From Cyclobacteriaceae bacterium (GTDB lineage: Bacteria > Bacteroidota > Bacteroidia > Cytophagales > Cyclobacteriaceae), in NCBI GenBank assembly GCA_024644875.1, contig JAHEGY010000040.1, forward strand, positions 1 to 35,706: a stretch of 35,706 bases of DNA, given 5' to 3'. Made by a program: the position numbers and the translations under genes. Shown here piece after piece: positions 5,946 through 29,786 of the stretch. Positions within the stretch are counted from its first letter, which is position 1. The number at the start of each line of letters is the position of its first letter. Under the pieces are notes generated by a model that made no database searches, was not told the DNA's origin, and saw only the letters and a list, made by a program, of their open reading frames with translations.

Positions 5946-7286
5946 TTAAAGTAAGAAACTCAACAAAATTCCCGCCGCCACGGCTGATCCAATAACACCA
6001 GAAACATTGGGGGCCATGGCATGCATTAACAGGTGATTCGTTGAATCGGCTTTGAGTCCCTCATGCTGCACCACCCTGGCACTATCCGGAACAGCAGAAA
6101 CTCCAGCTGCGCCTATTAAGGGATTCAATTTATTCTTCCCCTTTAAAAAGAGATTCATGAACCTGGCGAATATTAGTCCTCCCGCTGTTGCAATCATAAA
6201 TGACAATGCACCCAGTGCAAATATCAGCAATGAATCCGGTGTAAGAAATACATCAGCCTGAGTTGAAGCACCCACTGTGATCCCCAATAGTATGGTTACT
6301 ATGTCGATCAGGGAATTTTTTGCAGTTTCTGCTAACCTGTTTGTCCTGGTTGATTCTTTTAGAAGATTTCCAAAAAACAGCATACCAAGCAATGGCAGAG
6401 CATTCGGTGAAATAAATCCGGTCAGCAGAAGACCTATGATAGGGAAAAGGATTTTCTCTGTTTTCGATACAGCCCTCGGTGGTTTCATTCTGATCTTGCG
6501 TTCATTTTTGCTTGTCAGTAATCGCATGATTGGTGGTTGAATAACCGGAACCAGGGCCATATATGAATAAGCGGCTATTGCGATAGGCCCTATCAGGTTT
6601 TTTACTGTGGTACCGTCTGGCAATATATTAATTCCATTGGCTAAACGAGATGATATAAAAATAGCCGTTGGGCCATCTGCTCCACCAATGATACCAATGG
6701 CACCAGCCTCGGGTGGAGCGAATCCAAGCATGAGGGCGCCGAGAAAAGTTAAAAATATACCCACTTGTGCGGCTGCCCCCAGAAGCATCAGGCGTGGATT
6801 CGATATCAGTGATGAGAAATCTGTCATAGCACCTATACCGAGAAAAATCAAGGGTGGATAAATGCCCTTTACAACCCCATAATACAAATAATTTAGGACA
6901 CTTCCATCTTCATAAATTCCAATCTGAAATCCAGGCACAAAGGGTATGTTCCCGATAATAATACCAGTACCTATCGGGATCAATAAAAGAGGTTCATAAT
7001 TATACTCTATAGCAATGATGATAAAGAAGAGCCCTACTATAAGCATGGCAATATGTCCAAGGGTAGCATTGGCAAATCCTGTGTAACTAAAGAAATTCTT
7101 GATGCCTTTCAATGCCCCGTTCGATTTCTTAGCTTCGGAAAGATTATCTGTTCCTTCCTCAATGGTAATCTCTTTTTTGGCCAACTCATTTTCGCTTTCA
7201 GAGGCCGGGTGATCTGCACTGACAAAAGACAATCGCACCAGGGATAAAATAGCTATAATTCCTATAACTGTAAATAGTTTTCTCAT
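5946..7286 (-). CDS. mmdB: Sodium ion-translocating decarboxylase, beta subunit
   Basis: This is the integral membrane subunit that decarboxylates carboxybiotin and exports sodium (OadB/MmdB/GcdB family). The core (about 80-446) contains many TM helices and the hallmark GAIGIIGGADGPTAIF, whose Asp is essential in characterised homologues, plus PPLIFLGIGAMTDF and a C-terminal NVSGVIGSAVAAG. The 446-aa chain carries an unusual N-terminus: a signal-like helix (1-24) and an acidic, lysine-rich linker (about 25-60) before the family core. The start codon is ATG, 6 nt after the biotin-carrier stop. It is the last gene of the operon mmdA-oadG-mmdC-mmdB. Assignment to methylmalonyl-CoA, rather than oxaloacetate or glutaconyl-CoA, rests on the alpha subunit. 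Confidence 0.92.
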   Translation of the reverse strand: MRKLFTVIGIIAILSLVRLSFVSADHPASESENELAKKEITIEEGTDNLSEAKKSNGALKGIKNFFSYTGFANATLGHIAMLIVGLFFIIIAIEYNYEPLLLIPIGTGIIIGNIPFVPGFQIGIYEDGSVLNYLYYGVVKGIYPPLIFLGIGAMTDFSSLISNPRLMLLGAAAQVGIFLTFLGALMLGFAPPEAGAIGIIGGADGPTAIFISSRLANGINILPDGTTVKNLIGPIAIAAYSYMALVPVIQPPIMRLLTSKNERKIRMKPPRAVSKTEKILFPIIGLLLTGFISPNALPLLGMLFFGNLLKESTRTNRLAETAKNSLIDIVTILLGITVGASTQADVFLTPDSLLIFALGALSFMIATAGGLIFARFMNLFLKGKNKLNPLIGAAGVSAVPDSARVVQHEGLKADSTNHLLMHAMAPNVSGVIGSAVAAGILLSFLL

Positions 7287-7292
7287 CTCTCC

Positions 7293-7712
7293 TTATTCAA
7301 TTTCAATTAACAGATCACCCTGAAGTACAGAGTCGCCCTCTTGCACAAGAATCTTTTTTACCACGCCCTCTTTTTCAGCGAGAACATTGTTTTCCATCTT
7401 CATGGCCTCCATTATTAATACAGTATCACCTTTCTTAACAGCATCTCCCTCTTTGGCAATCAATTTAAAAATAGTTCCGGGTAAAGGGGCGGTAATCTTA
7501 CTTAATCCAGATCCCTTTTGAATCTCTGGTGGAGCTTTTTGTACAGGTTTTTCCGGTCGGATCAATTTTGGAGTCTTGGATGTTTTGATCTCCTGCTCCA
7601 TTTCTACGGTATAAGGTGTCCCATTAAGTTCAATTTCAGCTATATTATCTTCAAAAGACTTTATGTTAACCGTATACTTGTTGCCGCTGATGGTAAATTT
7701 GTATGTCTTCAT
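7293..7712 (-). CDS. mmdC: Biotin carrier (gamma) subunit of the decarboxylase
   Basis: This 139-aa protein is a biotin/lipoyl-attachment protein that shuttles the carboxyl group between the MmdA carboxyltransferase and the MmdB membrane pump. An N-terminal beta module (1-42) is followed by a Pro/Lys-rich flexible linker (about 44-68) and then the biotinyl domain. The domain includes TAPLPGTIFKLIAKEGD and the canonical EAMKMEN, so the biotinylated residue is Lys105. Gene order supports the role: OadG-like gene upstream, beta subunit 6 nt downstream. The 82-nt gap before it is the largest within the operon; I see no terminator in it. Confidence 0.94.
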   Translation of the reverse strand: MKTYKFTISGNKYTVNIKSFEDNIAEIELNGTPYTVEMEQEIKTSKTPKLIRPEKPVQKAPPEIQKGSGLSKITAPLPGTIFKLIAKEGDAVKKGDTVLIMEAMKMENNVLAEKEGVVKKILVQEGDSVLQGDLLIEIE

Positions 7713-7794
7713 TCGAAATTCAGTAATTTTTTCGGTTTCTAATTATTGATGTAATGATGGTATATTATTTTTATTCTCAGTCTTACCATACCGG

Positions 7795-8166
7795 CTAAAA
7801 TCTTCTGTTTAATCCCCTCGTTATTCCGTAGATCTTTGAACTCCAGGGAGAATAACTCTTGGATATTTTCCGGATGGTGATAATAGTATCCTCCTCATCA
7901 TGCATCTCATTGAAAAACATGAATATCGCTGTGCCTATAGCGGCATTACCTTCACCTGACAAATCCTCAGTGGAAGCTAAAAGTGTAGCCTCCTTGCCTC
8001 TCTTTCTTAAATACCGTCTTTTCTGAAAATCCAGCAGCTTAGGGACGGCATTGAATACAAAAGCAAGTAGTACTAAAGCCATAAAAACAATAAGGTATCC
8101 TACCAATGTAATTACCAGCCCGTCATTTAAAAGATAGTGCCAATTTATTTCAGCCAGATTCATCAT
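7795..8166 (-). CDS. OadG-family sodium-pump decarboxylase small subunit (delta)
   Basis: This 123-aa protein has one TM helix (about 14-40, GLVITLVGYLIVFMALVLLAF) and a charged cytoplasmic tail. It matches the small OadG/MmdD subunit that anchors and assembles the carboxyltransferase with the beta subunit. Residues about 68-105 (LSGEGNAAIGTAIFMFFNEM and following) resemble the conserved tail of Bacteroidota OadG proteins. It begins 10 nt after the mmdA stop and is clearly cotranscribed. Two adjacent ATG codons (8166 and 8163) could each serve as start. The family is poorly conserved, so the call depends partly on the operon. Confidence 0.88.
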   Translation of the reverse strand: MMNLAEINWHYLLNDGLVITLVGYLIVFMALVLLAFVFNAVPKLLDFQKRRYLRKRGKEATLLASTEDLSGEGNAAIGTAIFMFFNEMHDEEDTIITIRKISKSYSPWSSKIYGITRGLNRRF

Positions 8167-8176
8167 ATCAAATAAA

Positions 8177-9736
8177 TTATAATGGGATGTTTGAGTGTTT
8201 CTTAGGTGGATTAAAATCCTTTTTTGTAGACAGGATCTTTAATCCCCGGATTATCCTGAACCGGGTATTCCTGGGTTCAATTATATCATCTATAAAACCA
8301 TATTTAGCTGCCTGGTATGGATTGGCAAAATTTTCAATATATTCCTCTTCCTTCTCAGAGATAAATTTCTGTCTTTCTTCTTTATCAACGATTTCACGTA
8401 ATTTTTTGCCTTCTAATACCTCAACTGCTCCTTTAGCACCCATTACGGCTATTTCAGCAGAGGGCCAGGCATAGTTGAGGTCCCCTCTTAACTGCTTACA
8501 ACTCATCACATCATGAGCGCCACCATAGGATTTACGAAGTGTAATAGTGATTTTTGGAACGGTTGCTTCCCCATAAGCAAATAATAGTTTCGCTCCGTGA
8601 ATAATGATCCCTCCCAATTCCTGAGCACTACCGGGTAAAAAGCCCGGAACATCGACCAAAGTAATAATCGGGATGTTAAATGCATCACAGAAGCGAACAA
8701 AACGGGCAGCTTTCCTGGAAGCATCTATGTCAAGAACACCCGCCAGGTAATCCGGCTGGTTGGCAACAATACCCACCGGCATTCCATTAAACCTGGCAAA
8801 GCCGATAATGATGTTCTTGGCATAATTCCTTTGTATTTCCAGAAACTCATGCTCATCTGTAATGGCATGTATTACATCCTTGACATCATAGGGCTTGTTT
8901 GGATTTTCAGGAATTAATTCATTCAATTCATCTTCAAGCCGGTCTATTGGGTCTTTTGTTTCTGTAATTGGGGGTTCTTCAAGATTATTTGAAGGGATAT
9001 AACTCATCATCTTTCTGATTAACAGAAGCCCTTCTTCTTCTGATTCGACCATGAAATGAGAAATCCCGGATTTGGTCGAATGTACATTGGCCCCACCCAG
9101 ATCCTCAACGGAAATATCCTCACCGGTTACGGTTTTAACTACCTTCGGTCCGGTTACAAACATGTAACTTGACTTTTCGCTCATGATTATAAAATCAGTA
9201 AGGGCAGGAGAATATACTGCACCACCCGCGCAGGGGCCAAAAATCGCAGAGATCTGAGGTATCACGCCGGAGGATAAAATGTTTCTCTGAAATATCTCTG
9301 CATATCCGGCGAGACTGCGAACACCTTCCTGTATCCTCGCACCCCCGCTATCATTCAACCCAATTACCGGGGCACCTACCTGCATCGCCTGATCCATTAT
9401 TTTGCATATTTTCTGAGCGAACATTTCTGAAAGGCTGCCACCAAATACGGTGAAGTCCTGTGAGAATACGTATATCAGCCTGCCATCAATTGTACCATGC
9501 CCGGTAACCACTCCGTCTGATAAGAATTTCTGGTCCCACATTCCAAACGACTTTGTCCTGTGTGTAACGAACATATCGTACTCCTCAAAACTACCTTCAT
9601 CCAATAGAAGCAGGATCCTCTCCCTTGCCGTTAATTTGCCTTTGTTATGCTGGCTTTCAATACGTTTTTCGCCTCCACCCATACGCGCTTCAGCACGTTT
9701 TTCAATTAGCTCATTAATTTTTTCCTGATTGGTCAT
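8177..9736 (-). CDS. mmdA: Methylmalonyl-CoA decarboxylase alpha subunit (carboxyltransferase)
   Basis: This cytosolic carboxyltransferase moves the carboxyl group of an acyl-CoA, most likely methylmalonyl-CoA, to biotin on MmdC. The 519-aa protein is full length for the acyl-CoA carboxylase beta family, with two crotonase-like halves. Signatures include [39 protein letters not shown] and [18 protein letters not shown] in the N half, and [23 protein letters not shown] and [15 protein letters not shown] in the C half. These are the oxyanion-forming Gly-rich loops of the family. It is the first gene of the sodium-pump operon, which separates it from a propionyl-CoA carboxylase. No methylmalonyl-CoA epimerase gene precedes it, although one often does in relatives. 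A candidate Crp/Fnr-regulated promoter lies upstream. Confidence 0.94.
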
Positions 9737-19263: not shown

Positions 19264-20928
19264 TCAGTTAAATACAGGCTGCTTGCATCCTACCCAGGTA
19301 AATCGTTGCAGGACAAAATCCAGGTTTGACGCAGAGGCATTACTGGCTGTATTTCCCCCTGTCAGGTGGTATTCATCGTAATCAGCCCCCGGGACAATAT
19401 AAATATTCCCCACCATATTAAAAGTAATTGGTGTATTTGTGGAGGTTATCTGGTCAATGGCTATGTCCTTGAATTTTTCGTTTGTAGTAAAAACACTACA
19501 ATATAATGCCCCTTTTCTTTCAGCTGTTTCATAGGCAAGTTCCAGGGAGTGAAAAGAGTTTTTTGTTTTTATGAAGAACCCAACAGGACCGAAATGTTCT
19601 TTCATGTAGGTGTCTTTCTGGTCAGGGAACAACTCCATGATCATTGGAGATAATGTTCTGGCATTCTTATATTCTGGATGTGGGAATGAGCTGGCCTTGT
19701 AAATTAATCCCCCATTTTGTTTCTCCAGCTTTTCGATAGCAGATATGGTTTTTACATCCTGAATAGCTCCAAGGATCTGGGCACCTGTTTCATTATTAAT
19801 CAATTCAGAAAGTCCCTTGATAAACCGGTTAACAAATTCATTATAAGATATGAGGCCATCTGGTGTCTTAACACCTTCTTCCGGAATAAAGAAGTTTTGA
19901 GGCGTATTATTCATTTGACCGGAATACAAGGCGAGGGACATTACGAGGTTTTTTATACCAATTTCCAGATCGTCAAATGAATCGATAATTACTGAGTTAA
20001 CGCTGTGTTTTTCAGTAAATACCGTTTTGCCTTTCAGGTTCTTTAAATAATCTGCAAATAAACAGCTTCCTTTAAAGTCGATCAGTTTAATATGAGGATG
20101 TTCAACGAGAGATTTAATATAGTCTTCATCATCACTATCGACAGCCAGCTGGCAAACATTTGGATCAAACCCGTTCTCACTGAATACTTTCTGAATTTCC
20201 GCCACAACTATTGCAATAGGTAATATGGATGAAGAGTGTGGTTTGACTATCACGGGATTTCCGGTCATCAAACTCGCAAATATGCTTGGGACTGTATCCC
20301 TGGAGGGGAAATTCGGGCAGCCAAGGATAAGGCTGATTCCTTTGGGAACTGCAATCCAGGACTTTCCGAGTTTAATGCCGAATTCATCCTGCACTATCTT
20401 TCCAAAACGCGTGACCGGGTATCTTCTTAATGCATCAAAACCAGATGCTACGGCATTAAGAGCCCGTTGAGCCGAGTGTGGTCCCGAAATTTGAAATGCC
20501 ATAACATATCCCATGCCACTGGTGTGCATCGTGGCATATGCGATCTCAAAGAACCGCTTCTTAATTCGTTCCAGGGATTCAATTAAAAGCCCGGCCCGAT
20601 CCTCGACGGAGACTTTTCTCCATTTATGATATTCATTCTTTGCCCTTTCAATAAGTGTATTAATATCGAAAGTAGGGTATTGTATATTTAAGGGTTGTAA
20701 AAGAAATGGGGATTGTTCATTTCCTTCCCAACTTTCCGGCATGGCCTGCCGTAGCTCCTGGAACTTATTGTTAATATGACTTTTAAACTTCTGATAGCCT
20801 TCTGATATTGAATTTTCACCATATATCTTATCCGTGGGCAACTCCGGATATTTATTAAAGAAATATCCTTTATGAATTGATTTTATGGTATCATTTATGG
20901 TGCTTTTATATTTTTCGAATAAAAACAT
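19264..20928 (-). CDS. PaaN-family aldehyde dehydrogenase-like protein lacking the catalytic cysteine
   Basis: The 554-aa protein matches the PaaN (phenylacetic acid degradation, ALDH superfamily) type along its whole length. It has a family-specific N-terminus (FEKYKSTINDTIKSIHKGYF), then YATMHTSGMGYVMAFQISGP, then VPKGISLILGCPNFPSRD and TGNPVIVKPHSSSILPIAI for the cofactor domain, then the base region FTEKHSVN with Glu306, and YHLTGGNTASNAS near the end. The nucleophile position should read SGQMC. Here it is SGQMNNTPQN, with Asn340 (19909-19911) in place of Cys, so ordinary aldehyde oxidation should be impossible. The frame is intact and the rest is well conserved, so the gene is not a simple pseudogene. 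No other paa genes are nearby. A binding, structural or non-dehydrogenase role is possible. Confidence 0.85.
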   Translation of the reverse strand: MFLFEKYKSTINDTIKSIHKGYFFNKYPELPTDKIYGENSISEGYQKFKSHINNKFQELRQAMPESWEGNEQSPFLLQPLNIQYPTFDINTLIERAKNEYHKWRKVSVEDRAGLLIESLERIKKRFFEIAYATMHTSGMGYVMAFQISGPHSAQRALNAVASGFDALRRYPVTRFGKIVQDEFGIKLGKSWIAVPKGISLILGCPNFPSRDTVPSIFASLMTGNPVIVKPHSSSILPIAIVVAEIQKVFSENGFDPNVCQLAVDSDDEDYIKSLVEHPHIKLIDFKGSCLFADYLKNLKGKTVFTEKHSVNSVIIDSFDDLEIGIKNLVMSLALYSGQMNNTPQNFFIPEEGVKTPDGLISYNEFVNRFIKGLSELINNETGAQILGAIQDVKTISAIEKLEKQNGGLIYKASSFPHPEYKNARTLSPMIMELFPDQKDTYMKEHFGPVGFFIKTKNSFHSLELAYETAERKGALYCSVFTTNEKFKDIAIDQITSTNTPITFNMVGNIYIVPGADYDEYHLTGGNTASNASASNLDFVLQRFTWVGCKQPVFN

Positions 20929-21073: not shown

Positions 21074-22327
21074 ATGAAAATAATAAGGGCTACCGTCTTA
21101 ACAATAGGTGAAGAGATCTTGTACGGTCATATTTTGGATACAAATGCCAACTATATAAGCAATGCGCTTTCGGATGTGGGGATTAAGGTGGTGATGCATC
21201 TCTCGGTAGGCGATATTTATGATGATATTCTTCAGGCATTAGAAGTAGCCGGATCCAAATCTGATATCGTACTGATAACTGGTGGAATCGGACCCACGAA
21301 TGATGATATCACTAAAAAATGTCTTTCAGATTATTTTAATTCAGAAATAAAATTAAATCAGAAGGTACTTGATGAGCTGTCTGACTATTTCAAAAAGCGA
21401 GGTTTCCCTTTTACTGAGCGTAATCAAAAACAAGCTTATTTGCCTGAAAATGCGGAAATAATCCCTAATGCGATGGGTACAGCACCAGGAATGTGGTTTA
21501 AAAAAGATAATAAGATATTTATGTCAATGCCAGGGGTCCCACATGAAATGAAGCACCTTTTGGAAGAAGAAGTTATTCCAAGGTTAACCGGAACTTTCAA
21601 GACAAGCATAATCTACCATAAGCTAATTATGACGGCTGGCCTGGGTGAGTCCTGGCTCGCTGAGAAAATTGAAGAATGGGAAGATTCATTGGCGGATTGG
21701 TTATCACTTGCCTATCTCCCATCTTATGGACAGGTAAAACTAAGGTTAACCGCCAGGGGACAGGATAAACAATTTCTTATTAAAGGCGTGGAGTCTTATA
21801 TACGTTCTTTATATAAATATATAGGGCAATATATTTATGGGGAGGACGGTGAAACCATACAGGAAGCAATCGGAAAGAAATTGATCTCCAGCCAACAAAC
21901 ACTGGCTATTGCTGAAAGTTGTACCGGGGGGTATATTTCTCATTTAATTACCAGTGTTCCAGGCTCCTCCGCCTACTATAAGGGTGGTGTTATAGCGTAT
22001 AACAACAGTATCAAAGAAAGTACGATAAAGGTAAAACATGAAACCCTTCAGAAATATGGAGCTGTTAGTGAAGAAACAGTAAAAGAGATGGCAGATGGGA
22101 TCAGGCTGAGTTTCAACACTGATTATGCTGTTGCCACAAGTGGGATAGCCGGGCCTGGTGGAGGTACCGCTGAAAAACCTGTAGGTACAGTCTGGATAGC
22201 AATTTCCGGTCCGGATGGATGTACTACAAAAAAGTTGACGATACTGAAAGACCGCTCGAGCAATATAAAATACTCATCTGTACAGGCATTGGTATTACTG
22301 TGGCAAAGAATATCCCAAAAAAATTGA
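21074..22327 (+). CDS. cinA: CinA-family protein (NMN amidohydrolase/ADP-ribose pyrophosphatase type)
   Basis: The 417-aa protein has both CinA domains. The N-terminal MoaB/MogA-like domain (about 1-170) contains ILTIGEEILYGHILDTN-like residues, LITGGIGPTNDDITKK and MPGVPHEMKHLLEE. The C-terminal PncC domain (about 255-415) contains AIAESCTGGYISHLITSVPG, YKGGVIAYNNSIKES and ATSGIAGPGGGTAEKPVGTVW. PncC deamidates nicotinamide mononucleotide for NAD recycling. All of these motifs look intact. It is divergent from the PaaN-like gene and followed after 54 nt by the E2 gene, which has its own promoter candidate. The old competence-induced name does not imply competence here. Confidence 0.94.
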   Translation: MKIIRATVLTIGEEILYGHILDTNANYISNALSDVGIKVVMHLSVGDIYDDILQALEVAGSKSDIVLITGGIGPTNDDITKKCLSDYFNSEIKLNQKVLDELSDYFKKRGFPFTERNQKQAYLPENAEIIPNAMGTAPGMWFKKDNKIFMSMPGVPHEMKHLLEEEVIPRLTGTFKTSIIYHKLIMTAGLGESWLAEKIEEWEDSLADWLSLAYLPSYGQVKLRLTARGQDKQFLIKGVESYIRSLYKYIGQYIYGEDGETIQEAIGKKLISSQQTLAIAESCTGGYISHLITSVPGSSAYYKGGVIAYNNSIKESTIKVKHETLQKYGAVSEETVKEMADGIRLSFNTDYAVATSGIAGPGGGTAEKPVGTVWIAISGPDGCTTKKLTILKDRSSNIKYSSVQALVLLWQRISQKN

Positions 22328-23761: not shown

Positions 23762-24124
23762 TCAGGCAAGTTCCGGATGATTCTTCAGCGTCTGTCTAAT
23801 AAAATGATTTATCGCGATCCTTGAATCAACGGCTTCTGTAATATAAACCTCTTTCTGGGCTTTTACCAGTTCTTCGAACATCAGTTTCCCAAAACCATTT
23901 GATATCACAATCTGACAATCCCAGATGGCTGAAACGAGGGATAGTTCCTTTTCTATTGAATTATCCTGATCTGCTTCCTCTTCAAGTCTCTCAATTGATT
24001 TCCTTGAAATATATGATTCAGCAATAATTTCCCCGTTAGCTATTTCATATACATTAAAGCCATTAATACTTTGGATATTGGAAGATATCCGTCTTCCATC
24101 ACGAGTAGGTATTGCAATTTTCAT
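23762..24124 (-). CDS. NifX/NifB-like (FeMo-cofactor-binding fold) protein
   Basis: This 120-aa protein has the dinitrogenase iron-molybdenum cofactor biosynthesis fold: MKIAIPTRDGRRISSNIQSI at the start, and DCQIVISNGFGKLMFEELVK in the second half, where family members read a Gly-rich turn. It is smaller than NifB, lacks a radical-SAM domain, and no nif gene is visible. In Bacteroidota such proteins occur outside nitrogen fixation and may bind metal clusters or nucleotides (inference). It follows ackA by 76 nt on the same strand and converges with E2. It may be the last gene of the pta operon or separately expressed. Confidence 0.78.
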   Translation of the reverse strand: MKIAIPTRDGRRISSNIQSINGFNVYEIANGEIIAESYISRKSIERLEEEADQDNSIEKELSLVSAIWDCQIVISNGFGKLMFEELVKAQKEVYITEAVDSRIAINHFIRQTLKNHPELA

Positions 24125-28418: not shown

Positions 28419-29786
28419 ATGCCAATTTCATCAATAAATCCCTATAACTCAGAAGTGCTTGAGGAGTTTATCGAATTCAAAGATCATCAAATAGAGCAGG
28501 CGCTACAGGATGGCCAAAATGCATTCCGTGAGTGGTCAAAGACTTCTTTTTCCCATAGGCAGGAATTAATGCATAAATGTGCTGATGTTCTTGAACAGAA
28601 TATTGAAAAATTATCTAAGATCATTACCCTTGAGATGGGTAAGATAATTTCCGAATCAAGGGCTGAAATTAATAAATGTGCCTGGGTTTGTCGTTATTAT
28701 GCTGATCATGCTGAAACTTTTCTCAGGGACGAGAGGCTGGATGTGGAAGAAGCGGATAGTTACCTTGTATATGATCCGATAGGCATAGTTCTGGCGATTA
28801 TGCCATGGAATTTCCCTTTCTGGCAAGTATTCAGGTTTGCCGCTCCGGGACTGATGTCCGGGAATGTTGGAATCTTAAAACACGCCTCAAATGTACCGCA
28901 ATGCGCACTTGCGATAGAGGGGGTTTTTCGGGAATCCGGATTCCCGGAAGGTGCCTTTCAGACACTTTTGATCGGATCAGGTAAAGTGCCTAAAATCATT
29001 GATGATTCGAGAATTAAGGCAGTTACTTTGACAGGAAGTGATTTAGCGGGAAGAAGGGTTGCTGAGCGTGCTGGCAAGAACCTTAAAAAGCTGGTCCTTG
29101 AATTGGGTGGGAGTGATCCTTTTATCGTATTAAAAGAGGCAGACATTAAAACCGCAGTGGATACGGCTGTAAAAGCCCGTATGATCAATTGTGGACAGAG
29201 TTGTATTGCAGCAAAACGTTTTATTCTGGAAGAAACGATTTTCGATGAATTTATTGATCTTTTTGATAAGGCCTTTAGAGGTATGAAGGGTGGTGATCCA
29301 ATGTTGGATCAAGTCGATTATGGGCCAATGGCCAGAGAAGATCTCGTAGCAGAAATAGGCCACCAGGTGGAAGCTTCGGTAAACCTGGGGGCAAAGATCC
29401 TGACCGGCGGCGAAAGACCCACCACCAAAGGAAGCTTTTATAAACCTACTATTCTTACGCATGTAAAACCGGGCATGCCTGGTTTTGATGAAGAGCTTTT
29501 TGGTCCGGTAGCTTCAGTAATATCAGCCAGGGATGCCCCGGATGCTGTTAACATAGCAAATAATTCAAGATTCGGACTTGGCGCTTCCCTCTGGACGCAA
29601 GACCGGGACAATGCCTGGGAATTGGCAAGAAAAATAGAAACGGGAGCAGTTTTTGTGAACGCCATGGTTGCCTCTCACCCGAAAGTTCCCTTTGGAGGGA
29701 TCAAAGATTCCGGCTATGGGCGGGAACTTTCATATCTGGGCATCCGGGAGTTCATGAATGCAAAATCGATATGGGTGTCCGGATAA
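28419..29786 (+). CDS. NAD(P)-dependent succinate-semialdehyde dehydrogenase
   Basis: SSADH oxidises succinate semialdehyde to succinate. The 455-aa protein is full length for this ALDH class. It has AIMPWNFPFWQVFRFAAPG, the nucleotide site TLTGSDLAGRRVAERAG, base Glu228 in LVLELGGSDPFIVL, nucleophile Cys262 in MINCGQSCIAAKRFIL, and the C-terminal VPFGGIKDSGYGRELS. All catalytic residues are intact, in contrast to the PaaN-like protein at 19264-20928. It follows the EI24 gene by 6 nt and converges with YdcF with only 1 nt between stops. A GABA transaminase is not nearby. Other short-chain semialdehydes are possible substrates. Confidence 0.92.
   Translation: MPISSINPYNSEVLEEFIEFKDHQIEQALQDGQNAFREWSKTSFSHRQELMHKCADVLEQNIEKLSKIITLEMGKIISESRAEINKCAWVCRYYADHAETFLRDERLDVEEADSYLVYDPIGIVLAIMPWNFPFWQVFRFAAPGLMSGNVGILKHASNVPQCALAIEGVFRESGFPEGAFQTLLIGSGKVPKIIDDSRIKAVTLTGSDLAGRRVAERAGKNLKKLVLELGGSDPFIVLKEADIKTAVDTAVKARMINCGQSCIAAKRFILEETIFDEFIDLFDKAFRGMKGGDPMLDQVDYGPMAREDLVAEIGHQVEASVNLGAKILTGGERPTTKGSFYKPTILTHVKPGMPGFDEELFGPVASVISARDAPDAVNIANNSRFGLGASLWTQDRDNAWELARKIETGAVFVNAMVASHPKVPFGGIKDSGYGRELSYLGIREFMNAKSIWVSG

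Follow-up and report, generated by a model that had tools for sequence, protein, structure and literature searches.

What becomes of an aldehyde dehydrogenase (ALDH) whose nucleophilic cysteine is gone, and does its host still make use of it? An ORF in the draft genome of a Cyclobacteriaceae bacterium (97% complete) raises this question. It lies on the minus strand of the window, that is, the whole stretch of 35,706 nucleotides of DNA that was analyzed, and it encodes 554 amino acids from an ATG start with zero internal stops. According to the original prediction, the ORF encodes a full-length member of the PaaN family with Asn340 in the place of the nucleophile, which selection appears to maintain.

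The family assignment held. The TIGR02288 (PaaN_2) profile matched residues 3-551 (1.2e-135, 452.9 bits) without reaching its cut-off of 578.75. This sub-cut-off score alone does not set the protein apart, since 22 of the 85 class-sample genomes with a TIGR02288 match, the window included, likewise fall below the cut-off; it is the lowest score among the full-length matches of that sample. Pfam Aldedh (PF00171) matched residues 88-515 with 108.4 bits, exceeding its cut-off of 23, which places the protein in the ALDH superfamily. The Glu306 and TGGN blocks named in the prediction were both found, and codon 340, at the predicted position, was read as AAT (Asn). The closest solved chain, 5uju, has SGQMC in the nucleophile block where the window protein has SGQMNNTPQN. 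A second PaaN was not found in the window genome, whose two other matches are ordinary ALDHs, 23-24% identical. The window also contains a second, ordinary ALDH (28419-29786, plus strand; best NCBIfam match NF006915, 591.3 bits, cut-off 730) which has kept the NCGQSC nucleophile block.

PaaN proteins were collected from overlapping samples of the family (196 genomes), order (390 genomes, E <= 1e-150), class (395 genomes), and phylum (395 genomes), together with a few rows from a larger family sample and four plasmid records of Alpha- and Betaproteobacteria. The column census comprised 221 distinct PaaN rows, fragments included, so that two fragments from one genome (G008) count as two rows. 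Fifteen of 236 loci were skipped as duplicate views, neighboring stretches, or ordinary ALDHs (L002 and L003), and the phylum-sample matches G1362 and G1234 were left out. In an earlier alignment, 10 loci were omitted as repeat views or neighboring stretches, and the ordinary ALDHs L002 and L003 were below its threshold. Conserved-column analyses were confined to full-length rows, i.e., 181 Cys-type proteins and the two proteins of the genus.

Cys-Thr occupied the nucleophile column and its neighbor in all 219 other PaaN rows, and Asn340-Asn341 occurred only in the two species of the genus (Table 1). A replacement Cys at the nucleophile column was looked for in the alignment and not found. Beyond the tabulated columns, position 292 is Gly in 218/218 other covering rows and Ala or Val in the two species, and position 309 is Ser in both species and elsewhere Gly (214/218) or Ala (n = 4). 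Phe446, found in 216/216 other covering rows, is kept in both species. From the usual layout of ALDHs and from the alignment with 5uju, we take the altered columns to correspond to reaction-center and cofactor residues of other ALDHs; the roles of the cofactor Lys and of the E-x-F-G-P block are likewise presumed to hold in the window protein. Cys302, Glu268, and Lys192 are among such residues given in PMC8160307. Of the features expected of an active ALDH, the nucleophilic Cys is absent, and the general-base Glu306, Lys229, and E-x-F-G-P (Glu444 and Phe446) are present.

Table 1. Features of the window, with residue states across the PaaN rows
Feature	Position	Strand	Remarks
Cys-less PaaN ortholog, 554 aa	19264..20928	-	TIGR02288 1.2e-135, residues 3-551, under cut-off; Pfam Aldedh 108.4 bits
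Glu444 codon, E-x-F-G-P block, kept	19597..19599	-	Glu in 216/216 other covering rows
Asn341 codon AAT	19906..19908	-	Thr in 219/219 other rows; congener Asn, AAC
Asn340 codon AAT (plus strand att), nucleophile column	19909..19911	-	Cys in 219/219 other rows; congener Asn, AAC
Glu306 codon, general-base column, kept	20011..20013	-	Glu in 218/218 other covering rows and congener
Cys289 codon, Cys at this column in this genus only	20062..20064	-	Both species; elsewhere S, T, P, N, A, others
Lys286 codon	20071..20073	-	Thr in 218/218 other covering rows; Lys in both species
Lys229 codon, cofactor column, kept	20242..20244	-	Lys in 216/216 other covering rows and congener
Arg210-Asp211 codons	20296..20301	-	Trp, Asn in 216/216 other covering rows; Arg-Asp in both species
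Asn206 codon	20311..20313	-	Thr in 216/216 other covering rows; congener Tyr
cinA (presumed name), divergent neighbor, rate control, ancestral-locus marker	21074..22327	+	Near Cys-type paaN in L054, L009, L042

At a conservation of at least 99%, the 181 full-length Cys-type proteins define 71 columns, on which the extent of the change was assessed. Fifty-three of these columns were kept in both species, nine carried the same new residue in both, seven were changed differently, and two were changed in a single species. In a deviation test, each protein was judged only against proteins less than 60% identical to it, again at columns at least 99% conserved. Both genus proteins differed at 17 of 71 columns; after them, the largest deviation among the 183 full-length proteins was 4 of 58 columns, with a median of 0.

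The genus was sampled by two species, the window genome and a second genome (G004, 87% complete), and both have Asn. The congener's locus (L033, from Cyclobacteriaceae bacterium isolate SH-MAG193, which appears to be G004) encodes a PaaN 75% identical to the window protein, with the same SGQMNNTPQN block written with AAC-AAC codons. It was the single further locus found when exact peptide patterns were scanned over genome contigs, and no third PaaN of the genus type was seen among matches at E <= 1e-190 in 390 family genomes (G924 left out). The search for a close ortholog that retains Cys thus led to one close ortholog, itself without Cys, and the clade fixed for Asn under low dN/dS that the prediction called for is represented by two of two sampled species.

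Gene order is common to both species: DnaJ, paaN, cinA, E2, NifX-like, ackA, and hbd. Domain matches back the names DnaJ, NifX-like (under its cut-off), and 3-hydroxyacyl-CoA dehydrogenase; cinA, E2, and ackA are what we take those neighbors to be from their sequences. In the window, paaN and cinA are divergent with no gene in between. A DUF4197 gene separates paaN from a divergent cinA in L009 and L042, and in L054 both DUF4197 and an FMN-dependent dehydrogenase lie between the two. Since cinA is divergent from Cys-type paaN in these three loci as in the window, orthology by descent is indicated, and the best explanation of the arrangement is that the window gene is the lineage's own, vertically inherited paaN rather than a stray paralog. 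Absence of cinA elsewhere says little, because most loci had a flank of 1.5 kb only.

DUF4197 (unknown function), which often lies upstream of paaN in the family, was found close to paaN in 19 of the 44 family and order loci that had a flank, and it is present elsewhere in both genomes of the genus, which has thus retained it. It adjoins Cys-type paaN in, e.g., L050, L053, and L054, often with the FMN-dependent dehydrogenase next to it, and the DUF4197 protein is a possible partner of PaaN. The small NifX-like protein (23762-24124, minus strand; PF02579, 22.7 bits, cut-off 26.3) adjoins ackA and hbd, and its counterpart in L033 (2119-2502) is 63% identical to it. At 5946-9736 on the minus strand lies what, by eye, we presume to be a sodium-pumping acyl-CoA decarboxylase cluster consisting of a carboxyltransferase, a small membrane subunit, a biotin carrier, and a membrane pump. 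The region upstream of paaN gave no match to a Bacteroidota promoter pattern in either species.

PaaA and PaaC are both subunits of the phenylacetate pathway's ring epoxidase. The PaaN family is tied to this pathway by the arrangement in Azospirillum lipoferum, where an annotated paaN has paaABCDE on one side and paaGHI on the other, and paaK lies further along. In the family sample, PaaN (E <= 1e-30) was found in 67 of 196 genomes and a PaaA match in 81, of which 80 were above the cut-off. Outside the genus, PaaN-bearing genomes had a PaaA match in 60 of 65 cases (that of G062 being just a sub-cut-off fragment), and the five without one (G051, G081, G167, G180, and G188) are 81-87% complete. 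Both genus genomes bear PaaN, and neither the window genome nor G004 gave a PaaA match. PaaC was searched for in both and found in neither, and is present in all four controls. PaaK (TIGR02155) had no match in the window genome and matched G004 weakly and in part, which is uninformative since the control G172 had none either and none of the six genomes had one above the cut-off; PaaZ (TIGR02278) was above its cut-off in 0/6 genomes. The phenylacetate pathway thus seems to have been lost in both species. As these have one common history, the coincidence of pathway loss and Cys loss would count as a single event. PaaA matches without PaaN at E <= 1e-30 occur in 21 of the 196 family genomes, in which another protein may open the ring.

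The prediction that selection acts on the ORF was borne out: both ORFs are intact, and a pairwise codon model gave an omega of 0.042 for PaaN between the two species (limits 0.02-0.06, the lower being the lowest value of the grid), a value that is soft because synonymous sites are saturated. Counting estimates were saturated as well, with an infinite dS for 9 of 10 genes between the two species. An omega of 1 fit the PaaN pair worse by 249 log units, and the same model gave 0.016 and 0.025 for two Cys-type PaaN pairs. Fits for CinA and E2 (unbounded divergence) and for DnaJ (t = 23) were discarded. Among ten genes compared between the species, PaaN ranked third in identity (74.7%) behind Hbd and AckA, with CinA at 57.6%; the corresponding identities in three Cys-type pairs are 80-84% for PaaN and 71-75% for CinA.

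Most of the divergence falls before the two species separated. Across five genomes, the PaaN tree (553 columns) has a genus stem of 0.71 and tips of 0.14 and 0.19, versus 0.49, 0.41, and 0.44 for CinA (213 columns) in the same genomes. As the stem/tip contrast of PaaN has no counterpart in CinA, the burst on the stem is thus specific to PaaN relative to this one control gene, and constraint followed it. The genus pair is a single clade (support 100) in a 90-protein tree, where its stem measures 1.1 changes per column and its tips 0.21 each, and the tree does not fix where the pair belongs within the order. A long branch by itself proves nothing, because there are also fast PaaN branches with Cys intact (stem of L141/L145/L162, 1.19; tip of L172, 1.58). 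By the marks of a pseudoenzyme, a conserved catalytic residue is missing and the gene is kept by selection.

Taken together, these observations make it very probable that the dehydrogenase reaction has been lost and that the protein serves a selected function. The prediction that Cys-based ALDH chemistry is ruled out is well supported by a constrained protein with Asn in the nucleophile column. Probably, this is a stranded PaaN, remodeled after loss of its pathway and kept as a pseudoenzyme of the ALDH fold that binds a dinucleotide or another ligand. The sequences show that the nucleophile and several residues invariant in all other PaaN read have been replaced, with the bulk of the change on the stem, ahead of the split of the two species, and that strong purifying selection has held the protein after the split. 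Pathway loss would have released PaaN from its former reaction, leaving a stand-alone ALDH-fold protein from which aldehyde oxidation is gone. Its likeliest working mode may be binding: as the cofactor site retains Lys229 and its E-x-F-G-P block, NAD(P)(H) or some similar ligand is probably still held, and the protein would serve in binding or regulation, a mode to which we give a chance somewhat short of even. The two species would represent one evolutionary event, one of them known from the 87% complete G004. An AlphaFold2 model built from the window protein and its congener (two rows) had a mean pLDDT of 33.9 and was discarded.

Alternatively, though less likely than not, the old active site may have acquired a new function after pathway loss, without duplication, either as another enzyme or in sensing redox state or a metabolite. 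Its pocket would be polar, with Arg210, Asp211, Lys286, Ser309, Asn340, and Asn341 surrounding Glu306, which is retained, as is the dinucleotide site. The narrower proposal of a new enzyme in this pocket, whose reaction might be a hydrolysis, a hydration, or imine chemistry at Lys286, is the main rival to the binding reading but is unlikely. It accords with the identity of the pocket residues in both species at columns that are invariant or nearly so elsewhere, and with the strong constraint since the split. However, positions 206 (Asn/Tyr) and 292 (Ala/Val) differ between the species, and the neighboring genes point to no substrate. Moreover, where a column had changed, the new residue was common to both species at a frequency of 0.50 at the most conserved columns versus 0.45-0.64 at the others. 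Shared changes thus show no excess at the invariant columns that were lost; these frequencies give no sign of constraint specific to the new pocket and count against a claim that the pocket itself is selected.

A protein that is still an aldehyde dehydrogenase, with another nucleophile such as Cys289, specific to the genus, or Cys204, present across the family, is very improbable. Among the rows read, Cys289 occurs in the two species alone, and Cys204 is kept in both and present in 44/44 loci of one comparison. Cys204 is not a replacement nucleophile, however, because Cys-type proteins have it too, and the Thr residues at 206 and 286, adjacent to the reaction center by alignment, are altered as well.

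Substituted catalytic residues and a lost pathway are also what an unneeded enzyme would show, but a relic slowly decaying under relaxed selection is at odds with the two intact ORFs and the low omega, and the PaaN-to-CinA difference ratio in the genus (0.61-0.63) lies inside the range of Cys-type pairs (0.54-0.74), so that we consider this reading extremely improbable. An erroneous codon 340, introduced in sequencing or assembly, is conceivable in a draft of 254 contigs but is refuted by a second draft genome from another species that encodes Asn-Asn by different codons, and its probability is negligible; together with the strong purifying selection, the same observation argues against neutral decay.

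Pseudoenzymes are commonly attributed to gene duplication, in which one copy remains active and the other is freed. ALDH pseudoenzymes are already known, and what seems unusual here is the route, an apparent pathway loss with no duplicate copy: PaaN appears to owe its freedom to the loss of the remaining pathway. No Cys-less PaaN was found in the literature searched, which leaves out most subscription journals. The stranded PaaN would be a compact case of an ALDH fold gaining a non-dehydrogenase role, with change on one branch set against 181 full-length Cys-bearing relatives. In practice, annotation as "PaaN" by family profile could falsely assign phenylacetate degradation to the genus.

Of known systems, the closest is PaaN_2 itself (TIGR02288, e.g., 5uju), with which the window protein shares the full-length alignment, the recognizable blocks, Glu306, the cofactor residues, and the cinA-side locus. 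It differs in the missing nucleophilic Cys, the altered invariant columns, a score below the equivalog cut-off, and a genome in which PaaA and PaaC were not found. The bifunctional ring-opening PaaZ (TIGR02278) belongs to the same superfamily and, by name, to the same pathway, but the window protein scores just 25.2 bits with its profile (cut-off 562.8) and lacks the hydratase part. ALDH-derived lens crystallins (PMC10211241, PMC8160307) also illustrate non-catalytic use of an ALDH protein, though in the animal eye, in a structural role, at high abundance, and unconnected with bacterial pathway loss. Human ALDH16A1 (PMC8160307) is an ALDH without the catalytic Cys and is proposed to act by binding, much as suggested here. 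Whereas ALDH16 has an extra C-terminal ALDH-like region, the 554-aa window protein has one Aldedh match (88-515); it is a bacterial, single-domain member of another subfamily and, as we read it, the leftover of a catabolic pathway.
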